Origin: Kofleriaceae bacterium
GTDB lineage: Bacteria; Myxococcota_A; Polyangia; Haliangiales; Haliangiaceae
Direction: 5' to 3'
NCBI GenBank assembly: GCA_018057825.1
Contig: JAGPCY010000005.1
Location: forward strand, 1 to 64,000
DNA length: 64,000 bases
Positions 26,297 through 60,463 of this stretch are shown here, one piece after another. Below the pieces are notes generated by a model. That model saw nothing but the letters and a program-made list of their open reading frames with translations. It ran no database searches and was not told the DNA's origin. The position numbers and the translations under genes are program-made. Position 1 is the stretch's first letter, and the number at the start of each line of letters is the position of its first letter.

Positions 26297-26496
26297 GACG
26301 GAGGCGGAGGCCGAGACCGAGACCGAGGCGGAGACCGAGGCGGAGACCGAGGCGGAGACCGAGGCCGAGACCGAGGCGGAGGCCGAGACCGAGACCGAGG
26401 CAGAGACCGAGGCGGAGACCGAGACCGAGGCGGAGGCCGACACCGAGACCGAGGCGGAGACCGAGACCGAGACCGAGGCGGAGACCGAGACCGAGG
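26297..26496 (+). repeat. Hexanucleotide array GAGRCC/GAGGCG (array 2)
   Basis: About 33 tandem six-base units, GAGACC, GAGGCC and GAGGCG, with one GACACC variant, starting five bases after the copA stop codon. Read in one frame it gives Glu-Ala/Glu-Thr repeats without a stop, but it lacks a ribosome binding site and is not credible as a gene. It separates copA from the nhaA promoter. Confidence 0.85.
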
Positions 26497-29570: not shown

Positions 29571-29797
29571 GGAGGCGGAGACCGAGGCGGAGGCGGAGGC
29601 CGAGGCCGAGACCGAGGCGGAGGCCGAGACCGAGACCGAGGCCGAGGCGGAGGCCGAGACCGAGACGGAGGCCGAGACCGAGGCCGAGACCGAGACCGAG
29701 ACCGAGGCCGAGACCGAGACCGAGACCGAGGCCGAGACCGAACCCGAGGCCGAGTCCGAGGCCGAGACCGAGGCGGAGGCCGAGTGGAGTCCGAGTG
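29571..29797 (+). repeat. Hexanucleotide array GAGRCC (array 3) between convergent genes
   Basis: About 37 six-base units, mostly GAGACC and GAGGCC with GAGGCG, GAACCC and GAGTCC variants, filling the whole gap between trxB (stop 29560) and the convergent M20 gene (stop 29805). No other structure is seen in this interval. Confidence 0.85.
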
Positions 29798-34077: not shown

Positions 34078-35190
34078 ATGCGCGACCTCTATGAAGTTCT
34101 CGGCGTCGCCAAAGACGCCAGCGCCTCCGACATCAAGAAGGCGTACCACCGGTTGGCCAAGCAGTACCACCCGGACCTCAACCCCGGCGACAAGGCCGCG
34201 GAGGAGAAGTTCAAAGAAGCGGCCAACGCCTACCAGGTGCTGTCCGACGAGGAGCAGCGCGCGCGCTACGATCGGTTCGGGCCCGACGCGTTGCGCGCCG
34301 GCGGCGGTGGGCCGGGCGGCACGGGCTTCAACTCAGTCGAGGACATCTTCTCGGCCTTCGGCGACATGTTCGGCGACTTCTTCGGCGGTCGGACGTCGGG
34401 GGGGCGCCGCACCGCGCGGGGGGCCGACCTGCGGGTCGACCTCAAGCTGTCGTTCGCCGAGGCGGTGTGGGGCACCAACAAGGAGCTGAAGGTCGCGCGC
34501 GACGTGCCGTGTGGCACGTGTCAGGGCTCGGGGGCGCGCGCCGGCACCAAGCCCGAGACCTGCTCGTCGTGCAACGGCCGCGGCCAGGTGGTGCACAGCC
34601 AGGGCTTCTTCATGGTCCAGAGCGTGTGCCCGCGCTGCCGCGGTGAGGGCAAGGTCGTGCGCGAGGCGTGCGTCGAGTGCAACGGCCGCCGGGTGCAGAG
34701 CGAGACCTCGACCCTGGCGGTGACCGTGCCGCCCGGCGTCGACGACGGCCAGACCTTGCGCCTGGCCGGCAAGGGCGAGGTCGCGCCCGGCGGCGGCACG
34801 CCCGGGCACCTCTATGTCGTCCTCCACGTGGTCGGCGACGAGCGCTTCCAGCGCGACGGCGAGGACATCCTCACCGAGGTCCCGGTCAGCTTCGTCAAGG
34901 CCGCCCTCGGCGGCGAGGTCGAGGTGCCGGTGCTCGACGACAACTGCGAAGGCACGACCACCGTCGAGATCCGCCCCGGCACCCAGCCCGGCGATCACGT
35001 CGTGCGCAAGGGCGCCGGGGTGCCGCGCATCGGCAAGACCGGGCGCGGCGATCAGGTCGTGCGGTGGAAGGTCGAGATCCCGACCAAGCTGTCGGGCAAG
35101 GCCAACGAGCTTCTGCGCGAGCTGGCGGTCGAGCTGGGCGAGGACGTGAAGGGCAAGAAGGGCGGTCTGTTCTCGCGGCTGAAGAAGTAG
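34078..35190 (+). CDS. dnaJ: Chaperone protein DnaJ (type I Hsp40)
   Basis: Hsp70 co-chaperone that delivers substrates and stimulates the DnaK ATPase. 370 residues: J-domain 1-70 with HPD at 31-33, Gly/Phe-rich linker (about 75-115), the zinc-binding cysteine-rich domain with four repeats (CGTCQGSG, CSSCNGRG, CPRCRGEG, CVECNGRR; about 143-205), then two beta domains with VTVPPGVDDGQTLRL and the C-terminal dimerisation segment. The fourth zinc repeat ends GRR rather than GxG, a common variant. dnaK and grpE are not adjacent. Confidence 0.95.
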   Translation: MRDLYEVLGVAKDASASDIKKAYHRLAKQYHPDLNPGDKAAEEKFKEAANAYQVLSDEEQRARYDRFGPDALRAGGGGPGGTGFNSVEDIFSAFGDMFGDFFGGRTSGGRRTARGADLRVDLKLSFAEAVWGTNKELKVARDVPCGTCQGSGARAGTKPETCSSCNGRGQVVHSQGFFMVQSVCPRCRGEGKVVREACVECNGRRVQSETSTLAVTVPPGVDDGQTLRLAGKGEVAPGGGTPGHLYVVLHVVGDERFQRDGEDILTEVPVSFVKAALGGEVEVPVLDDNCEGTTTVEIRPGTQPGDHVVRKGAGVPRIGKTGRGDQVVRWKVEIPTKLSGKANELLRELAVELGEDVKGKKGGLFSRLKK

Positions 35191-35191
35191 C

Positions 35192-35227
35192 GGGCGCGGC
35201 GGGCGCGGCGGGCGCGGCGGGCGCGGT
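35192..35227. repeat. Four tandem 9-bp repeats GGGCGCGGC after dnaJ
   Basis: Four head-to-tail copies (35192-35200, 35201-35209, 35210-35218, 35219-35227; last base differs) start one base after the dnaJ stop. They lead into the upstream region of the peptide genes. No hairpin or T-tract terminator is seen. Confidence 0.8.
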
Positions 35228-35333
35228 GTGCGGGGCTCCCGACGGCGGACGGGGCCCCAGGTTGTCGACCGCGGGTAGCGCGGCCCCACCCTGGGCGCGT
35301 GACGTAAGTGGCGAGAACGACCACCGGCGCGGG

Positions 35334-35350
35334 CTGGCATGGCGGCTGCA
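35334..35350 (+). promoter_or_regulatory. Candidate sigma-54 (-24/-12) promoter of the GG-peptide genes
   Basis: CTGGCATGGCGGCTGCA matches the sigma-54 consensus YTGGCACGRNNNTTGCW at 13 of the 14 constrained or semi-constrained positions except C7 to T and T13 to C (two mismatches in total), with the essential GG and GC dinucleotides 12 bp apart. Transcription would start near 35361, about 60 nt upstream of the first peptide ATG (35424), leaving room for the AAAGG ribosome binding site seen about 8 nt before it. The rest of the 35228-35423 gap shows nothing else recognisable. Confidence 0.5.
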
Positions 35351-35423
35351 CTAGGGCTCGAGGGTCCGGGGCGCTCCATGCGTCCCCCCGAATCCCCCCG
35401 CTCTCCCCGCGAAAGGTCCTCCC

Positions 35424-35675
35424 ATGTCGAACTTCACCGCGATCGATCTCGATGTCCTCGGCTCTGTCACCGGCGGCGCCGGCGACGCGCCCAACACCGC
35501 CCGCACCAAGGTCGACGGCAACATCGGCGTGACCTACAAGGACACCAAGGTCGGGGTCCAGGGCGGCTACGAGACGAGCACCGCGCGCACCAACCCGGCC
35601 GAGTGCGCGGCCCAGGTCCGCGCCGCCGGCGGCGACGCGGCCCAGATCCTCGACTGCTTCAAGTCGGCCAAGTAG
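35424..35675 (+). CDS. Double-glycine-leader peptide 1 (two-cysteine core)
   Basis: An 83-residue precursor. The leader ends VTGG at residues 15-18 and has the spacing of peptidase-C39-cleaved leaders: Ile at -12, Leu at -7, Val at -4, Gly-Gly at -2/-1. The predicted core (residues 19-83) has an N-terminal Asn/Thr/Gly-rich part with alternating beta-like sequence (GNIGVTYK, KVGVQGGYE) and a C-terminal helix-like part with Cys61 and Cys78, probably one disulfide. AAAGG precedes the ATG. About three quarters of residues match peptide 2. The family is not recognised; a secreted bacteriocin-like, signalling or adhesive peptide are all possible. The paralogy and leader pattern make the gene itself credible. 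Confidence 0.75.
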   Translation: MSNFTAIDLDVLGSVTGGAGDAPNTARTKVDGNIGVTYKDTKVGVQGGYETSTARTNPAECAAQVRAAGGDAAQILDCFKSAK

Positions 35676-35718
35676 CCCACGCCCGCGCTCCACGCCACCT
35701 CCACCACCGAGGTCTTCC

Positions 35719-35973
35719 ATGTCGAACTTCGCTGCGATCGAGCTGTCCGCCCTCGAGGCCGTCACCGGCGGCAACGGTGCCGCGCCCAACCAGACCACCA
35801 CCAAGGCCACCGGCAACCTCGGCGTGACCTACAAGGGCACGCAGGTCGGCGTCCAGGGCGGCTACGAGTCGAGCACCACCCGGACCAACCCGGCCGAGTG
35901 CGCGGCCCAGGTCCGCGCCGCTGGCGGCTCGCCGTCCCAGATCCTCGACTGCTTCAAGCCCCAGGGGCAGTGA
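35719..35973 (+). CDS. Double-glycine-leader peptide 2 (paralogue of peptide 1)
   Basis: An 84-residue precursor beginning MSNFAAIELSALEAVTGG, again with Ile -12, Leu -7, Val -4 and Gly-Gly at -2/-1. The core differs from peptide 1 mainly in residues 19-42 and at the extreme C-terminus, while residues 43-70 are almost identical (26 of 28), including NPAECAAQVRAAGG; Cys61 and Cys78 are conserved. A GAGG ribosome binding site lies before the ATG. The 43-bp gap to peptide 1 and 7-bp gap to peptide 3 imply one transcript. Conservation concentrated in the C-terminal half points to a functional fold there. Confidence 0.75.
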   Translation: MSNFAAIELSALEAVTGGNGAAPNQTTTKATGNLGVTYKGTQVGVQGGYESSTTRTNPAECAAQVRAAGGSPSQILDCFKPQGQ

Positions 35974-35980
35974 GCCGGCC

Positions 35981-36235
35981 ATGGAGATCATCCCCCTCGA
36001 CCTGCTCGCCGCCGTCGTCGGTGGCGCCGGTGAGAACGTGACCAAGACCGAGGTCTCGGGCAGCGTCCTCGGCCAGCGCGCCACCGTCCGCACCGAGACC
36101 CGCGTCCCCGACAGCGCGGCCTGCCGCGCCGAGATCAAGCAGGCCTGCGACGACACCAACCGCGGCTGGCTCGGCGTCGATCGCGCCGCCGCCGGCCAGT
36201 GCTTCCTGAACAACATCCCGAACTGCCCCAAATAG
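35981..36235 (+). CDS. Double-glycine-leader peptide 3 (four-cysteine core)
   Basis: An 84-residue precursor with a shorter leader, MEIIPLDLLAAVVGG; Ile -12, Leu -7, Val -4 and Gly-Gly at -2/-1 are kept. The core is diverged, but the order is the same: a beta-like N-terminal part (TKTEVSGSVLGQRATVRTETR) is followed by a C-terminal part in which Cys48 and Cys74-Phe75 correspond to Cys61 and Cys78-Phe79 of peptides 1 and 2. Extra Cys56 and Cys82 would allow a second disulfide. It begins seven bases after peptide 2 with no clear ribosome binding site, so coupled translation is likely. Confidence 0.7.
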   Translation: MEIIPLDLLAAVVGGAGENVTKTEVSGSVLGQRATVRTETRVPDSAACRAEIKQACDDTNRGWLGVDRAAAGQCFLNNIPNCPK

Positions 36236-36249
36236 GCCCCACCGCCCCT

Positions 36250-36415
<166 letters not shown>

Positions 36416-36534
36416 AACCGCGCGCGTCTCGGCGGCCTGCGCTGGAACCCCACCGCTCGAGGTCATGGCGCGGGGTCTCCCGACCCTCACGCAGCACCAC
36501 CAGCGCCCCAGCGGGGCGCGTCTCGGGTGGGGGA

Positions 36535-36591
36535 CCCGCCGGGGACCTGGCCCCGGCGGGGGAGGGTTTGGTGACAAACCCTCCCAAAAAA
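36535..36591. repeat. Double-hairpin element, copy A
   Basis: Two adjacent perfect 10-bp stems. Stem 1 is CCCGCCGGGG (36535-36544), loop ACCTGG, CCCCGGCGGG (36551-36560). Stem 2 is GGGAGGGTTT (36560-36569), loop GGTGAC, AAACCCTCCC (36576-36585), followed by six A. A GCGTCTCGGG box precedes it. Copy B repeats this architecture 89 bp later with different stem sequences but the same GGTGAC loop. Confidence 0.8.
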
Positions 36592-36623
36592 GCGGACCGG
36601 AGGGACGCGTCTCGGAGAGGAGG

Positions 36624-36679
36624 CTCGCCAGGGCTTCGCCCTGGCGAGGAGAGGTCTGGTGACAGACCTCTCCAGAAAA
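36624..36679. repeat. Double-hairpin element, copy B
   Basis: Stem 1 is CTCGCCAGGGC (36624-36634), loop TTC, and its complement (36638-36648). Stem 2 is GGAGAGGTCT (36648-36657), loop GGTGAC, AGACCTCTCC (36664-36673), then AGAAAA. A GCGTCTCGGA box precedes it, as in copy A. It ends one base before the stop codon of the minus-strand gene at 36681. Neither direction has the T-tract of a standard rho-independent terminator after the stem. Confidence 0.8.
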
Positions 36680-36680
36680 T

Positions 36681-37616
36681 TCAGTTCATCTCCGCCCGCT
36701 CCGCCAGGACCTCGAGCACCTCGTCGACGAAGTCGTCGGGCGGGACGAACTCGTAGTGCTCGTCGGTCTCGCGGGTCGGCAGCGTGCGCAGGGTGTCGTC
36801 GCGCCACCAGTACAGGTTGGGCGTGATCGCCCCCGGCCCCTCGCCGTGGAGGTTGGCCGCCATCACCACCATCGCGTCGAGGGCGCGCAGGCTGTTGGCG
36901 TCGCCGATGACGTGCCACAGGAGGGTGTGGCGGTTGGGCACCGCGGCGATCACGCCGAGCGGCGCGTCGTCGGTGACGAAGTCGCGCAGGAGCAAGAGGT
37001 TCGACGCCACGAAGTAGCTGTCGCCGGTCATCGCCCGCACCATCGCGCCGCCGCCGACGTCGACCTCTTCGATCGGCGCCCGCTCGGTGCGCCGCTGGTT
37101 GGCCAGGGCCTGGTAGTACAGCTCCTCGGGCGACACGCCCCAGCGCGGCACGGTCTCGCCGGTGACCGTGACGACGTTCGACGGCAGGTCGTAGCAGAGG
37201 ACCGCGGTCAGATCGTCGGCGACGTCGTGGAGCACGAAGTGGTCGGTGCCCGGCGTGAACGTGTCGCGCGCGTACAGGCGCAAGCGGAGCAGCGGCCGGG
37301 CGGCGTTGAGATCGCCGCCGAGCTGCGCGGCGAGCGCGCGATCGCCGCGACCGGCGACCAGGGCGTCGAAGTGCGAGGCGATGACCTCGGGGTAGCTGCC
37401 GGGCGTCGAGGCGTGGCAGAGCTGCGCCAGGTTGGTCAAGCCTAGGGCCTCGTCCTCGTCGGAGCCCCAGCGTCCCCACAGGACGCCGTCGTCGACGCGG
37501 TACGGGCTGCCGCGCCGGACCAGCTCGGCGACGAGGGCCACCGCGAAGTCGCGCCACTCGCCGTCGGTCATGAACTTGGCCCAGGCCGGCCGCGCGTCGG
37601 GATCGAGGTCGGTCAC
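36681..37616 (-). CDS. Conserved-looking protein of unknown function
   Basis: A 311-residue soluble protein with no signal peptide or TM helix, acidic overall, with mixed alpha/beta pattern. Segments such as TAVLCYDLPSNVVTVTGETVPRWGVSPEELYYQALANQ and the later VPNRHTLLWHVIGDAN faintly recall the DUF1444/YtpQ family, whose function is not known; I give this low weight. The GTG start at 37616 has GAGG about 5 nt upstream. It is 33 bp downstream of sixA on the same strand and may be co-transcribed. Confidence 0.7.
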   Translation of the reverse strand: MTDLDPDARPAWAKFMTDGEWRDFAVALVAELVRRGSPYRVDDGVLWGRWGSDEDEALGLTNLAQLCHASTPGSYPEVIASHFDALVAGRGDRALAAQLGGDLNAARPLLRLRLYARDTFTPGTDHFVLHDVADDLTAVLCYDLPSNVVTVTGETVPRWGVSPEELYYQALANQRRTERAPIEEVDVGGGAMVRAMTGDSYFVASNLLLLRDFVTDDAPLGVIAAVPNRHTLLWHVIGDANSLRALDAMVVMAANLHGEGPGAITPNLYWWRDDTLRTLPTRETDEHYEFVPPDDFVDEVLEVLAERAEMN

Positions 37617-46118: not shown

Positions 46119-46320
<202 letters not shown>

Positions 46321-58494: not shown

Positions 58495-58631
58495 CTCCGC
58501 CTCGGCCTCGGTCTCGGCCTCGGCCTCGGTCTCGGTCTCGGTCTCGCTCTCGGTCTCGGTCTCCGCCTCGGTCTCGGTCTCGGCCTCGGCCTCGGCCTCG
58601 GTCTCGGTCTCGGCCTCGGCCTCGGTCTCCG
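58495..58631 (-). repeat. Hexanucleotide array, reverse orientation (array 6) between convergent genes
   Basis: About 22 units reading GCCTCG, GTCTCG and GTCTCC on the plus strand (CGAGRC on the minus strand). It fills nearly the whole gap between the FMN reductase stop (58492) and the stop of the convergent gene at 58644. Confidence 0.85.
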
Positions 58632-58643
58632 CCCCTCCCGCCC

Positions 58644-60245: not shown

Positions 60246-60463
60246 GAGGCGGAGACCGAGGCCGAGACCGAGACCGAGGCCGAGACCGAGGCCGAGACCG
60301 AGGCCGAGGCCGAGGCCGAGACCGAGACCGAGGCCGAGGTGGAGACCGAGTCCGAGACCGAGGCCGAGACCGAGGCCGAGGCCGAGGCCGAGACCGAGAC
60401 CGAGGCCGAGGTGGAGACCGAGTCCGAGGTGGAGACCGAGACCGAGGCGGAGACGAGGCCGAA
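60246..60463 (+). repeat. Hexanucleotide array GAGRCC (array 7) with an internal 72-bp duplication
   Basis: About 36 six-base units ending two bases before the stop codon of the FHA regulator gene. The rare unit pair GAGGTGGAG occurs at 60336 and again at 60408, exactly 72 bp (12 units) apart and within an otherwise matching block, so a 12-unit segment has been duplicated. No promoter for the downstream VWA gene is recognised between the array and 60190. Confidence 0.85.

Follow-up and report, generated by a model that had tools for sequence, protein, structure and literature searches.

Three adjacent genes at positions 35424-36235 of a 64,000-nucleotide stretch from a Kofleriaceae bacterium (assembly GCA_018057825.1, contig JAGPCY010000005.1, positions 1 to 64,000; hereafter the window) encode small precursors with double-glycine (GG) leaders. 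These genes probably form an accessory operon of a sigma-54-controlled regulon of secreted peptides that would be exported in trans, a reading to which we assign a probability of roughly 80% on sequence evidence. In the proposed mechanism, a signal would reach an FHA-domain activator, probably via a Ser/Thr kinase suggested by the gene neighborhood. The activator, encoded in the gene row of the exporter, would bind a dyad about 70 bp upstream of -24/-12 promoters, and sigma-54 would direct transcription of scattered GG-leader genes and of parts of the export cluster. A C39 exporter with HlyD and TolC partners would then read the -12/-7/-4/GG leader, cut after GG, and send out cores of 65-69 residues in trans; the cores encoded in the window would be oxidized outside the cell. 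Among the matches listed from the open-access literature there was no description of a sigma-54-controlled GG-peptide regulon.

Peptide operon and distant exporter

The operon consists of the genes for GG-leader peptides 1 (35424-35675, + strand, 83 aa), 2 (35719-35973, + strand, 84 aa), and 3 (35981-36235, + strand, 84 aa). The original prediction of three tandem genes of 83, 84, and 84 codons is borne out by the coordinates of the open reading frames (ORFs), and all three leaders indeed carry Ile at -12, Leu at -7, and Val at -4, counted back from the GG. Cleavage after residue 18 of peptide 1 would leave a 65-aa core with two cysteines (CX16CF). The predicted core of peptide 2 has 66 residues and two cysteines, and that of peptide 3 has 69 residues and four cysteines spaced CX7C-X17-CX7C; the two additional cysteines noted initially in peptide 3 are thus confirmed. 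The precursors share the tested features of double-glycine substrates of peptidase-containing ABC transporters (PCATs), being short, with hydrophobic residues at -12/-7/-4 and GG at -2/-1. Identity to peptide 1 is 71% for peptide 2 and 39% for peptide 3. Genes 1 and 2 form a tandem duplication with a 295-bp period (synonymous divergence dS ~0.22, nonsynonymous divergence dN ~0.18, dN/dS ~0.83). The GC content of the three genes is 0.95-0.96 at codon position 3 versus 0.51-0.57 at position 2, resembling the neighboring genes.

A Peptidase_C39 search over the whole genome (8,892,834 bases, 99.69% complete) yielded a single match, on contig C14, whereas the window lies on contig C20 and contains none. 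It had been proposed that no dedicated exporter is encoded nearby, that a C39-domain ABC transporter should be sought elsewhere in the genome, and that export occurs in trans. The first two points agree with this search, and the third is supported in sequence by the presence of one C39 ABC exporter and by the alignment of the window leaders with those of peptides from the exporter cluster. The exporter (744 aa) has C39, ABC membrane, and ATPase domains. Its residues 30-734 align with the solved bacteriocin transporter 4ry2, and the alignment with ComA is similar. The catalytic triad is complete, with Cys39, His112, and Asp128 aligned to Cys27, His101, and Asp117 of LahT; Val occupies the position of LahT Ile137. 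The literature on these peptidases describes the triad, the -12/-7/-4/GG leader rule, and the packing of LahT Ile137 on the leader Val at -4 (PMC6363468, PMC6959990).

Besides the exporter, the C14 cluster encodes an HlyD-like partner together with a second membrane-fusion protein, as well as a divergent TolC-like protein. One further product matches the Receptor L domain weakly, and two others without any Pfam match look outer-membrane-like by eye. The cluster also encodes three GG-leader peptides with a core type differing from that of the window. The strand of the exporter gene also carries, behind it and the gene of the second membrane-fusion protein, an activator gene whose product combines FHA, Sigma54_activat, and HTH_8 domains with a GSFTGA loop. 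A Ser/Thr kinase gene is located ~2.3 kb from the activator gene; kinases 58-61% identical to it are also found 2.5-5 kb from the activator in two relatives, G026 and G022. The sigma factor gene rpoN is present, with one Sigma54_DBD match (E 9.3e-65, C44:10505-10981).

The linkage of exporter and activator is conserved. Orthologous export clusters (exporter 59-89% identical) occur in nine relatives whose clusters were fetched, and an orthologue of the FHA activator (69-88% identical) adjoins the second membrane-fusion gene in seven of them; in the other two the contig ends first. The leader, the promoter, and the exporter-activator cluster recur in a congener and in a second genus, and the dyad recurs clearly in a few of their promoters. 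Among 56 genomes searched, the studied one included, GG-leader genes were found in nine and the C39 domain in 43. This leader search used a model of twelve leaders from the studied genome, whose own E-values are uninformative. It listed 43 matches, those lacking a returned locus being covered only where the region was fetched, and the model is incomplete, as it gave no match in G029, yet two GG genes are present there in locus L203. With regard to the homologues anticipated in the original prediction, the leader spacing is thus conserved elsewhere, and no credible homologue of the mature cores was found (see below). In the congener G003, a second FHA-type sigma-54 activator (L174 13488-14867, 55% identical) is encoded ~3.5 kb from a cysteine-containing GG peptide (9981, - strand). 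Other C39 clusters of relatives encode GG peptides of a different leader style, some of them Cys-rich (L204 4145, + strand; L201 8447, - strand, and 8990, + strand), and look like separate systems.

In the studied genome, the leader of peptide 1 shares 50-65% identity with window leaders 2 and 3 and with the three leaders linked to the exporter. A model built from these six leaders, three from the window and three from C14, for which its E-values are uninformative as they are model members, identified six GG-leader genes beyond its own members, spread over five loci: one each at C43, C20:174 kb, C47, and C44 and two at C63. The best gene outside the model has an E-value of 2e-7; the weak matches C63b (E 0.002), C47 (0.005), and C44 (0.26) were accepted after reading the sequences. 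An independent route led to C26, a 78-aa GG-leader gene with Ala at -4 and a promoter 85 bp upstream: missed in the leader-model lists, it was reached via a promoter-plus-GTCGAC pattern searched with no leader requirement. With C26 included, the GG-leader loci number eight. By eye, their cores are of four kinds: helical (C14, C20, C43), Gly-rich hydrophobic (C63, C47, C26), Pro-rich (C44), and the cysteine family of the window. The C44 gene, encoding the Pro-rich peptide, stands at a contig end (L073 9958, - strand) that separates it from its promoter; a peptide resembling it by eye is found in G003 (L172:9560). The two Gly-rich peptide genes of C63 enclose a candidate immunity gene, an ORF of 66 aa that has a strongly hydrophobic segment (L071 9723-9923, - strand).

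Promoters and upstream dyad

Upstream of the peptide 1 gene, the sequence CTGGCATGGCGGCTGCA (35334-35350, + strand) fits a sigma-54-type -24/-12 promoter, with GG and GC 10 bp apart; transcription would be expected to start at about 35361. Sites were scored by an ad hoc, untrained count against the consensus TGGCACG-N4-TTGCW. CTGGCATGGCGGCTGCA is the only match scoring at least 7 in the window. At scores of at least 6, the window contains 7 matches versus 7.0 expected, so the promoter match is not significant by itself but is significant together with the other loci. Similarly, the strict pattern TGGCAYRN4YTGCW has 29 matches in the genome versus 20 for its reversed control, and a lone strict match therefore means little. 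In the 20 kb around the exporter, by comparison, six -24/-12 matches are present versus 1.3 expected, and each of the six GG loci with available upstream DNA has a site (scores 6.0-7.5).

The association of such sites with GG genes was assessed on 27 first-in-array genes from the studied and related genomes, of which 16 have a site scoring at least 7 and 23 a site scoring at least 6 within 150 bp, versus 22 and 41, respectively, of 509 other ORFs. After exclusion of C26, because it was found by its promoter, the Fisher test compares 15/26 with 22/509 (P ~9e-13) at the higher threshold and 22/26 with 41/509 (P ~9e-19) at the lower one. The 27-gene sample was hand-picked, with a regular expression applied to loci retrieved in the course of the leader and exporter searches. 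It leaves out C44, which has almost no upstream DNA, later array genes, duplicate views (L190, L191), and three hits of other leader style, two in L201 and one in L204, which would have scored 7.0, 6.0, and 6.0; C63b was kept, though it follows C63a. The null set was taken from ORF starts in loci longer than 5 kb and includes overlapping loci and some regulon genes. When the test was repeated on the 25 relatives' loci from the leader search, 23 of which were parsed (all but L119 and L127), 17 of the 23 had a site scoring at least 6 and 8 of the 23 a site scoring at least 7 within 150 bp. All seven genes new to this sample score at least 6. The six misses comprise four later array genes and the first peptide genes of the G003 and G022 exporter clusters.

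The promoters often share an upstream element. At 6 of 10 promoters the hexanucleotide GTCGAC begins 68-72 bp before the -24 element, and at four of the six GG loci with upstream DNA it is found 68-71 bp upstream of the promoter; it belongs to a dyad like GTCGACCGCGGGTAGC. This 16-base dyad is identical at the window operon and at C26. The candidate upstream activator site of the window, GGTTGTCGACCGCGGGTAGCGCG, spans 35260-35282 (strand unspecified) and has a leave-one-out score of 20.3 bits; its GTCGAC starts at 35264, which places it 71 bp before the -24 element. The combined pattern GTCGAC-N(56-74)-TGGYAYN7GCW matches the genome 14 times, compared with one match for the reversed control, and seven of the 14 lie in the regulon: at the window, at three promoters of the C14 cluster, and at C47, C63, and C26. 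A pattern with the GC element one base out of register, in effect an accidental negative control, gives 10 matches, none at a GG gene promoter. When 16 promoters of relatives were scored with a weight matrix built from the sites of the studied genome, dyads of 19.0, 18.0, 18.0, and 17.1 bits were found at -67, -83, -76, and -83, two of them in G003 and one each in G022 and G029; the 99% background level, from random 200-bp stretches, is 14.1 bits. A binomial P of 3e-10 (6/9 promoters, -73 to -67) is not relied on, the interval having been picked post hoc and C14:14071 omitted. Taken together, the presence of rpoN, the FHA activator in the exporter gene row, and the promoter type and dyad shared across GG loci support in sequence the sigma-54 control suggested initially.

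The same -24/-12 pattern precedes two pilin-like genes (C58:58339 and 61209; loci L035 and L036) with starts FTLVELM and FTLIELM. Pilin genes are a class often under sigma-54, and these sites could plausibly serve as an internal positive control. Near the ends of contigs C3, C42, and C51 (L016, L033, and L034), nearly identical ORFs starting MSLPRQVLPGRFLMINRRCVQREL are each preceded by an identical -24/-12 match; the three are probably one repeated element.

Predicted mature peptides and the genomic slot of the operon

AlphaFold2 models of peptide 1 (from three sequences; predicted local distance difference test, pLDDT, 57) and of peptide 3 (from a single sequence; mean pLDDT 69.7) both place a beta-hairpin ahead of two helices. 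In the peptide 3 model the helices span residues 45-59 and 68-81, with ten-residue pLDDT means of 72-90 from residue 41 on. The cysteines lie on or beside the two predicted helices, which suggests, at low to middling confidence, a disulfide-stapled helical hairpin behind the beta-hairpin. Comparison with known folds is weak: for peptide 3, re-comparison of the Foldseek list gave a best Z of 3.8 (rmsd 4.9 over 49 residues), and the hairpin of walnut Jug r 2 scored Z 3.1 (rmsd 2.2 over 36). Foldseek with the peptide 1 model gave no match at E <=0.001, and a sequence search of solved structures with all three peptides returned nothing but matches to VDAC, at E >=0.14. The window cores are hydrophilic (grand average of hydropathy, GRAVY, -0.47 to -0.62) and weakly charged. 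Against the Pfam family PF10439 Bacteriocin_IIc, peptides 1 and 2 score 15.4 and 14.3 bits, below the cut-off of 27.1, and peptide 3 is not listed. In NCBIfam, peptide 2 reaches 14.4 bits for the CTB family bacteriocins (NF038167), below the cut-off of 32, and peptides 1 and 3 have no family.

The operon is flanked upstream by dnaJ (34078-35190) and downstream by a convergent gene (36681-37616). The dnaJ gene was found in six of seven genus genomes, the studied one included, and its surroundings were read in four relatives. Only ~50 bp in G005 and <20 bp in G001 separate dnaJ from the convergent gene, so that the slot is nearly empty there; in G003 it contains ~5 kb of other, repeat-rich DNA, and in G002 the contig ends ~1.2 kb past dnaJ and the convergent gene was not found. 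From these empty or different slots and from the lack of a core match among relatives, the window operon looks like an accessory gain or a case of repeated loss in relatives. In an own-genome and 94-relative search, the cores gave three weak hits (E 4.5e-4, 1.3e-3, and 2.1e-3), the best of which has an internal stop; this same hit was the only match outside the studied genome in a scan of 317 genomes of the class. No core homologue was found in phages and plasmids (searched with peptide 1 only) or in viral contigs. The cysteine-containing GG peptide of G003 (L174:9981, - strand) was considered as a distant core relative; its alignment is limited to the leader and first residues, at a probability of 25%, and no homology is claimed.

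No sigma-70 promoters or terminators were found within 35180-36750, and no tailoring enzymes of ribosomally synthesized and post-translationally modified peptides (RiPPs) were recognized among the neighboring ORFs, as judged by eye with no formal test. On the + strand from 36236 to the convergent gene at 36681, no gene-like ORF was detected (at least 45 aa, by codon-position GC), and hence no immunity gene candidate. Degenerate GAGACC/GAGGCC (CTCGGT) hexanucleotide arrays occur in the window at 26301-26492, 29572-29739, 36312-36389, 46119-46316, 58495-58632, and 60246-60407. The array at 36312-36389 sits shortly 3' of the third peptide gene, and a similar array is found upstream of the C14 13101 promoter. 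The palindrome CCCACGTGGG occurs 14 times in the dnaJ slot of G003 (L214 5214-10169) and not at all in seven further loci fetched from G003.

Alternative readings and possible roles

Several observations weigh against assigning the window genes to one sigma-54 regulon of selected, secreted peptides. In the 317 genomes of the class, with up to 17 candidates scored per listed genome and hence limited sensitivity, there was no credible match to the window cores, and none was found in the genome_contigs collection by one-sequence and three-sequence scans; thus, there is no independent sign that the cores are under selection, and copies 1 and 2 differ with a dN/dS close to 0.8. Of the first-in-array GG genes, 4/27 have no site scoring at least 6, the exporter-linked genes of G003 and G022 (C433) among them, and some site scores are modest (C63a 6.5, C47 6.0). 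The dyad exceeds the 99% background in only four of the 16 relatives' promoters, the other 12 falling below it, and leave-one-out scoring gives it weak values at C20 (10.0) and C63a (13.1). Of the 68 dyad matches of at least 13 bits, 56 have no -24/-12 site nearby, so that the dyad is not diagnostic by itself. The remaining seven of the 14 combined-pattern matches are not known regulon members, and no GG gene was seen at the two of them that were scanned (L184, L185). Finally, the linked activator is the presumed dyad binder, but other FHA activators exist in relatives.

Alternatively, the genes may be real and C39-exported but respond to another activator, or follow a chance -24/-12 match, and not be co-regulated with the pump. 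We consider this unlikely. Loose-threshold sites are indeed expected about seven times per 64-kb window, and a 55%-identical activator is encoded near a GG gene of G003; against this stand the concentration of sites at GG genes in both Fisher tests and the identity of the 16-base dyad at the window and C26. The lack of core homologues would also be compatible with chance GG motifs in cytoplasmic or unexpressed peptides. Such an explanation is barely credible, given that three adjacent genes obey one leader rule, that related leaders reach 50-65% identity to that of peptide 1, that the six-leader model finds unlinked GG genes outside its members, and that the codon-position composition is gene-like.

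Our first guess is that, once outside the cell, the peptides would act in competition or in recognition among relatives. The chance that the peptides are narrow-spectrum bacteriocin-like toxins or kin-recognition weapons against close relatives is only slightly short of even. The variability of the operon between species, with no credible core homologue in the class and a nearly empty slot in G005 and G001, points in this direction, as do the tandem, diverging gene copies, the Gly-rich (31-34%), hydrophobic composition of other regulon peptides, which resembles that of pore formers, and the hydrophobic 66-aa ORF enclosed by the C63 pair, as expected of an immunity gene. The window operon itself fits less well, with no immunity-like ORF in or beside it, hydrophilic and weakly charged cores, and a Bacteriocin_IIc score far below the cut-off. 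A conceivable, somewhat less probable alternative is that the peptides serve as components or signals in the matrix, in biofilms, or in development. Developmental control in myxobacteria typically involves sigma-54 and FHA activators, the same promoter pattern precedes the two pilin-like genes, and the recurrence of the C14 helical GG family in relatives fits a conserved social role of that family. A precedent is provided by EbfG and PteB, four small GG proteins and a C39 transporter that are needed for biofilm (PMC4997328). The window family, by contrast, is not conserved, unlike what would be expected of a structural matrix component.

EbfG1-4 and PteB of Synechococcus elongatus are similar in combining small GG secreted proteins with C39 maturation and export in a Gram-negative bacterium, and illustrate that GG peptides of such bacteria need not be toxins (PMC4997328). 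The EbfG1-4 genes form one operon, whereas here the precursors are scattered over eight loci and have several unlike cores, those of the window with paired cysteines; the regulation of the EbfG genes is called unknown in that source, whereas here a sigma-54-type promoter, often with an upstream dyad, is present (PMC4997328). LahT, PCAT1, and ComA, from the PCAT/AMS (ABC transporter maturation and secretion) group, share the C39 triad and the hydrophobic -12/-7/-4 and GG leader positions, but the exporter described here has HlyD and TolC partners and apparently serves many unlinked substrates (PMC6363468, PMC6959990). Cyanobacterial bacteriocin clusters similarly combine many diverse GG precursors with a C39 ABC transporter and HlyD; no sigma-54 regulon appears in the relevant passages on these clusters, and NHLP and N11P are other precursor families (PMC3140520). 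Sigma-54 control of natural products is known for the nonribosomal peptide synthetase (NRPS) and polyketide synthase (PKS) genes of Myxococcus xanthus, where sigma-54 promoters and upstream sites of enhancer-binding proteins likewise occur in a myxobacterium; there the targets under Nla28 are NRPS/PKS genes, and here they would be GG peptides (PMC7910581). In the text of that paper, "bacteriocin" and "leader" are absent and "RiPP" matches only an author's name (PMC7910581).

More broadly, the data may be tentatively read, at rather less than even odds, as a modular secretome: a conserved switch of kinase, FHA activator, and sigma-54 and a conserved C39/HlyD/TolC exporter would serve an open set of peptides, and the window operon would count as a species-specific newcomer that brings a novel disulfide-stapled fold. 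If so, any small gene that gains the leader, the dyad, and a -24/-12 promoter would join the arsenal, and each species would consequently have its own scattered repertoire. The repertoire in the studied genome would then comprise at least four core types, distinguished by eye, at eight loci, by which social relatives would recognize or compete with one another.

The usual place to look for GG-leader peptides is next to their exporter. Here the exporter, the activator, and the promoter logic link genes across contigs, so that the sequence alone could be enough to match orphan GG peptides with a pump and a switch. In a group that is known more for its NRPS/PKS products, this linkage opens a directly testable way of finding ribosomal secreted peptides. 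It also points to a way in which a bacterium could retain a single secretion switch even as its set of peptides is replaced from one species to the next.

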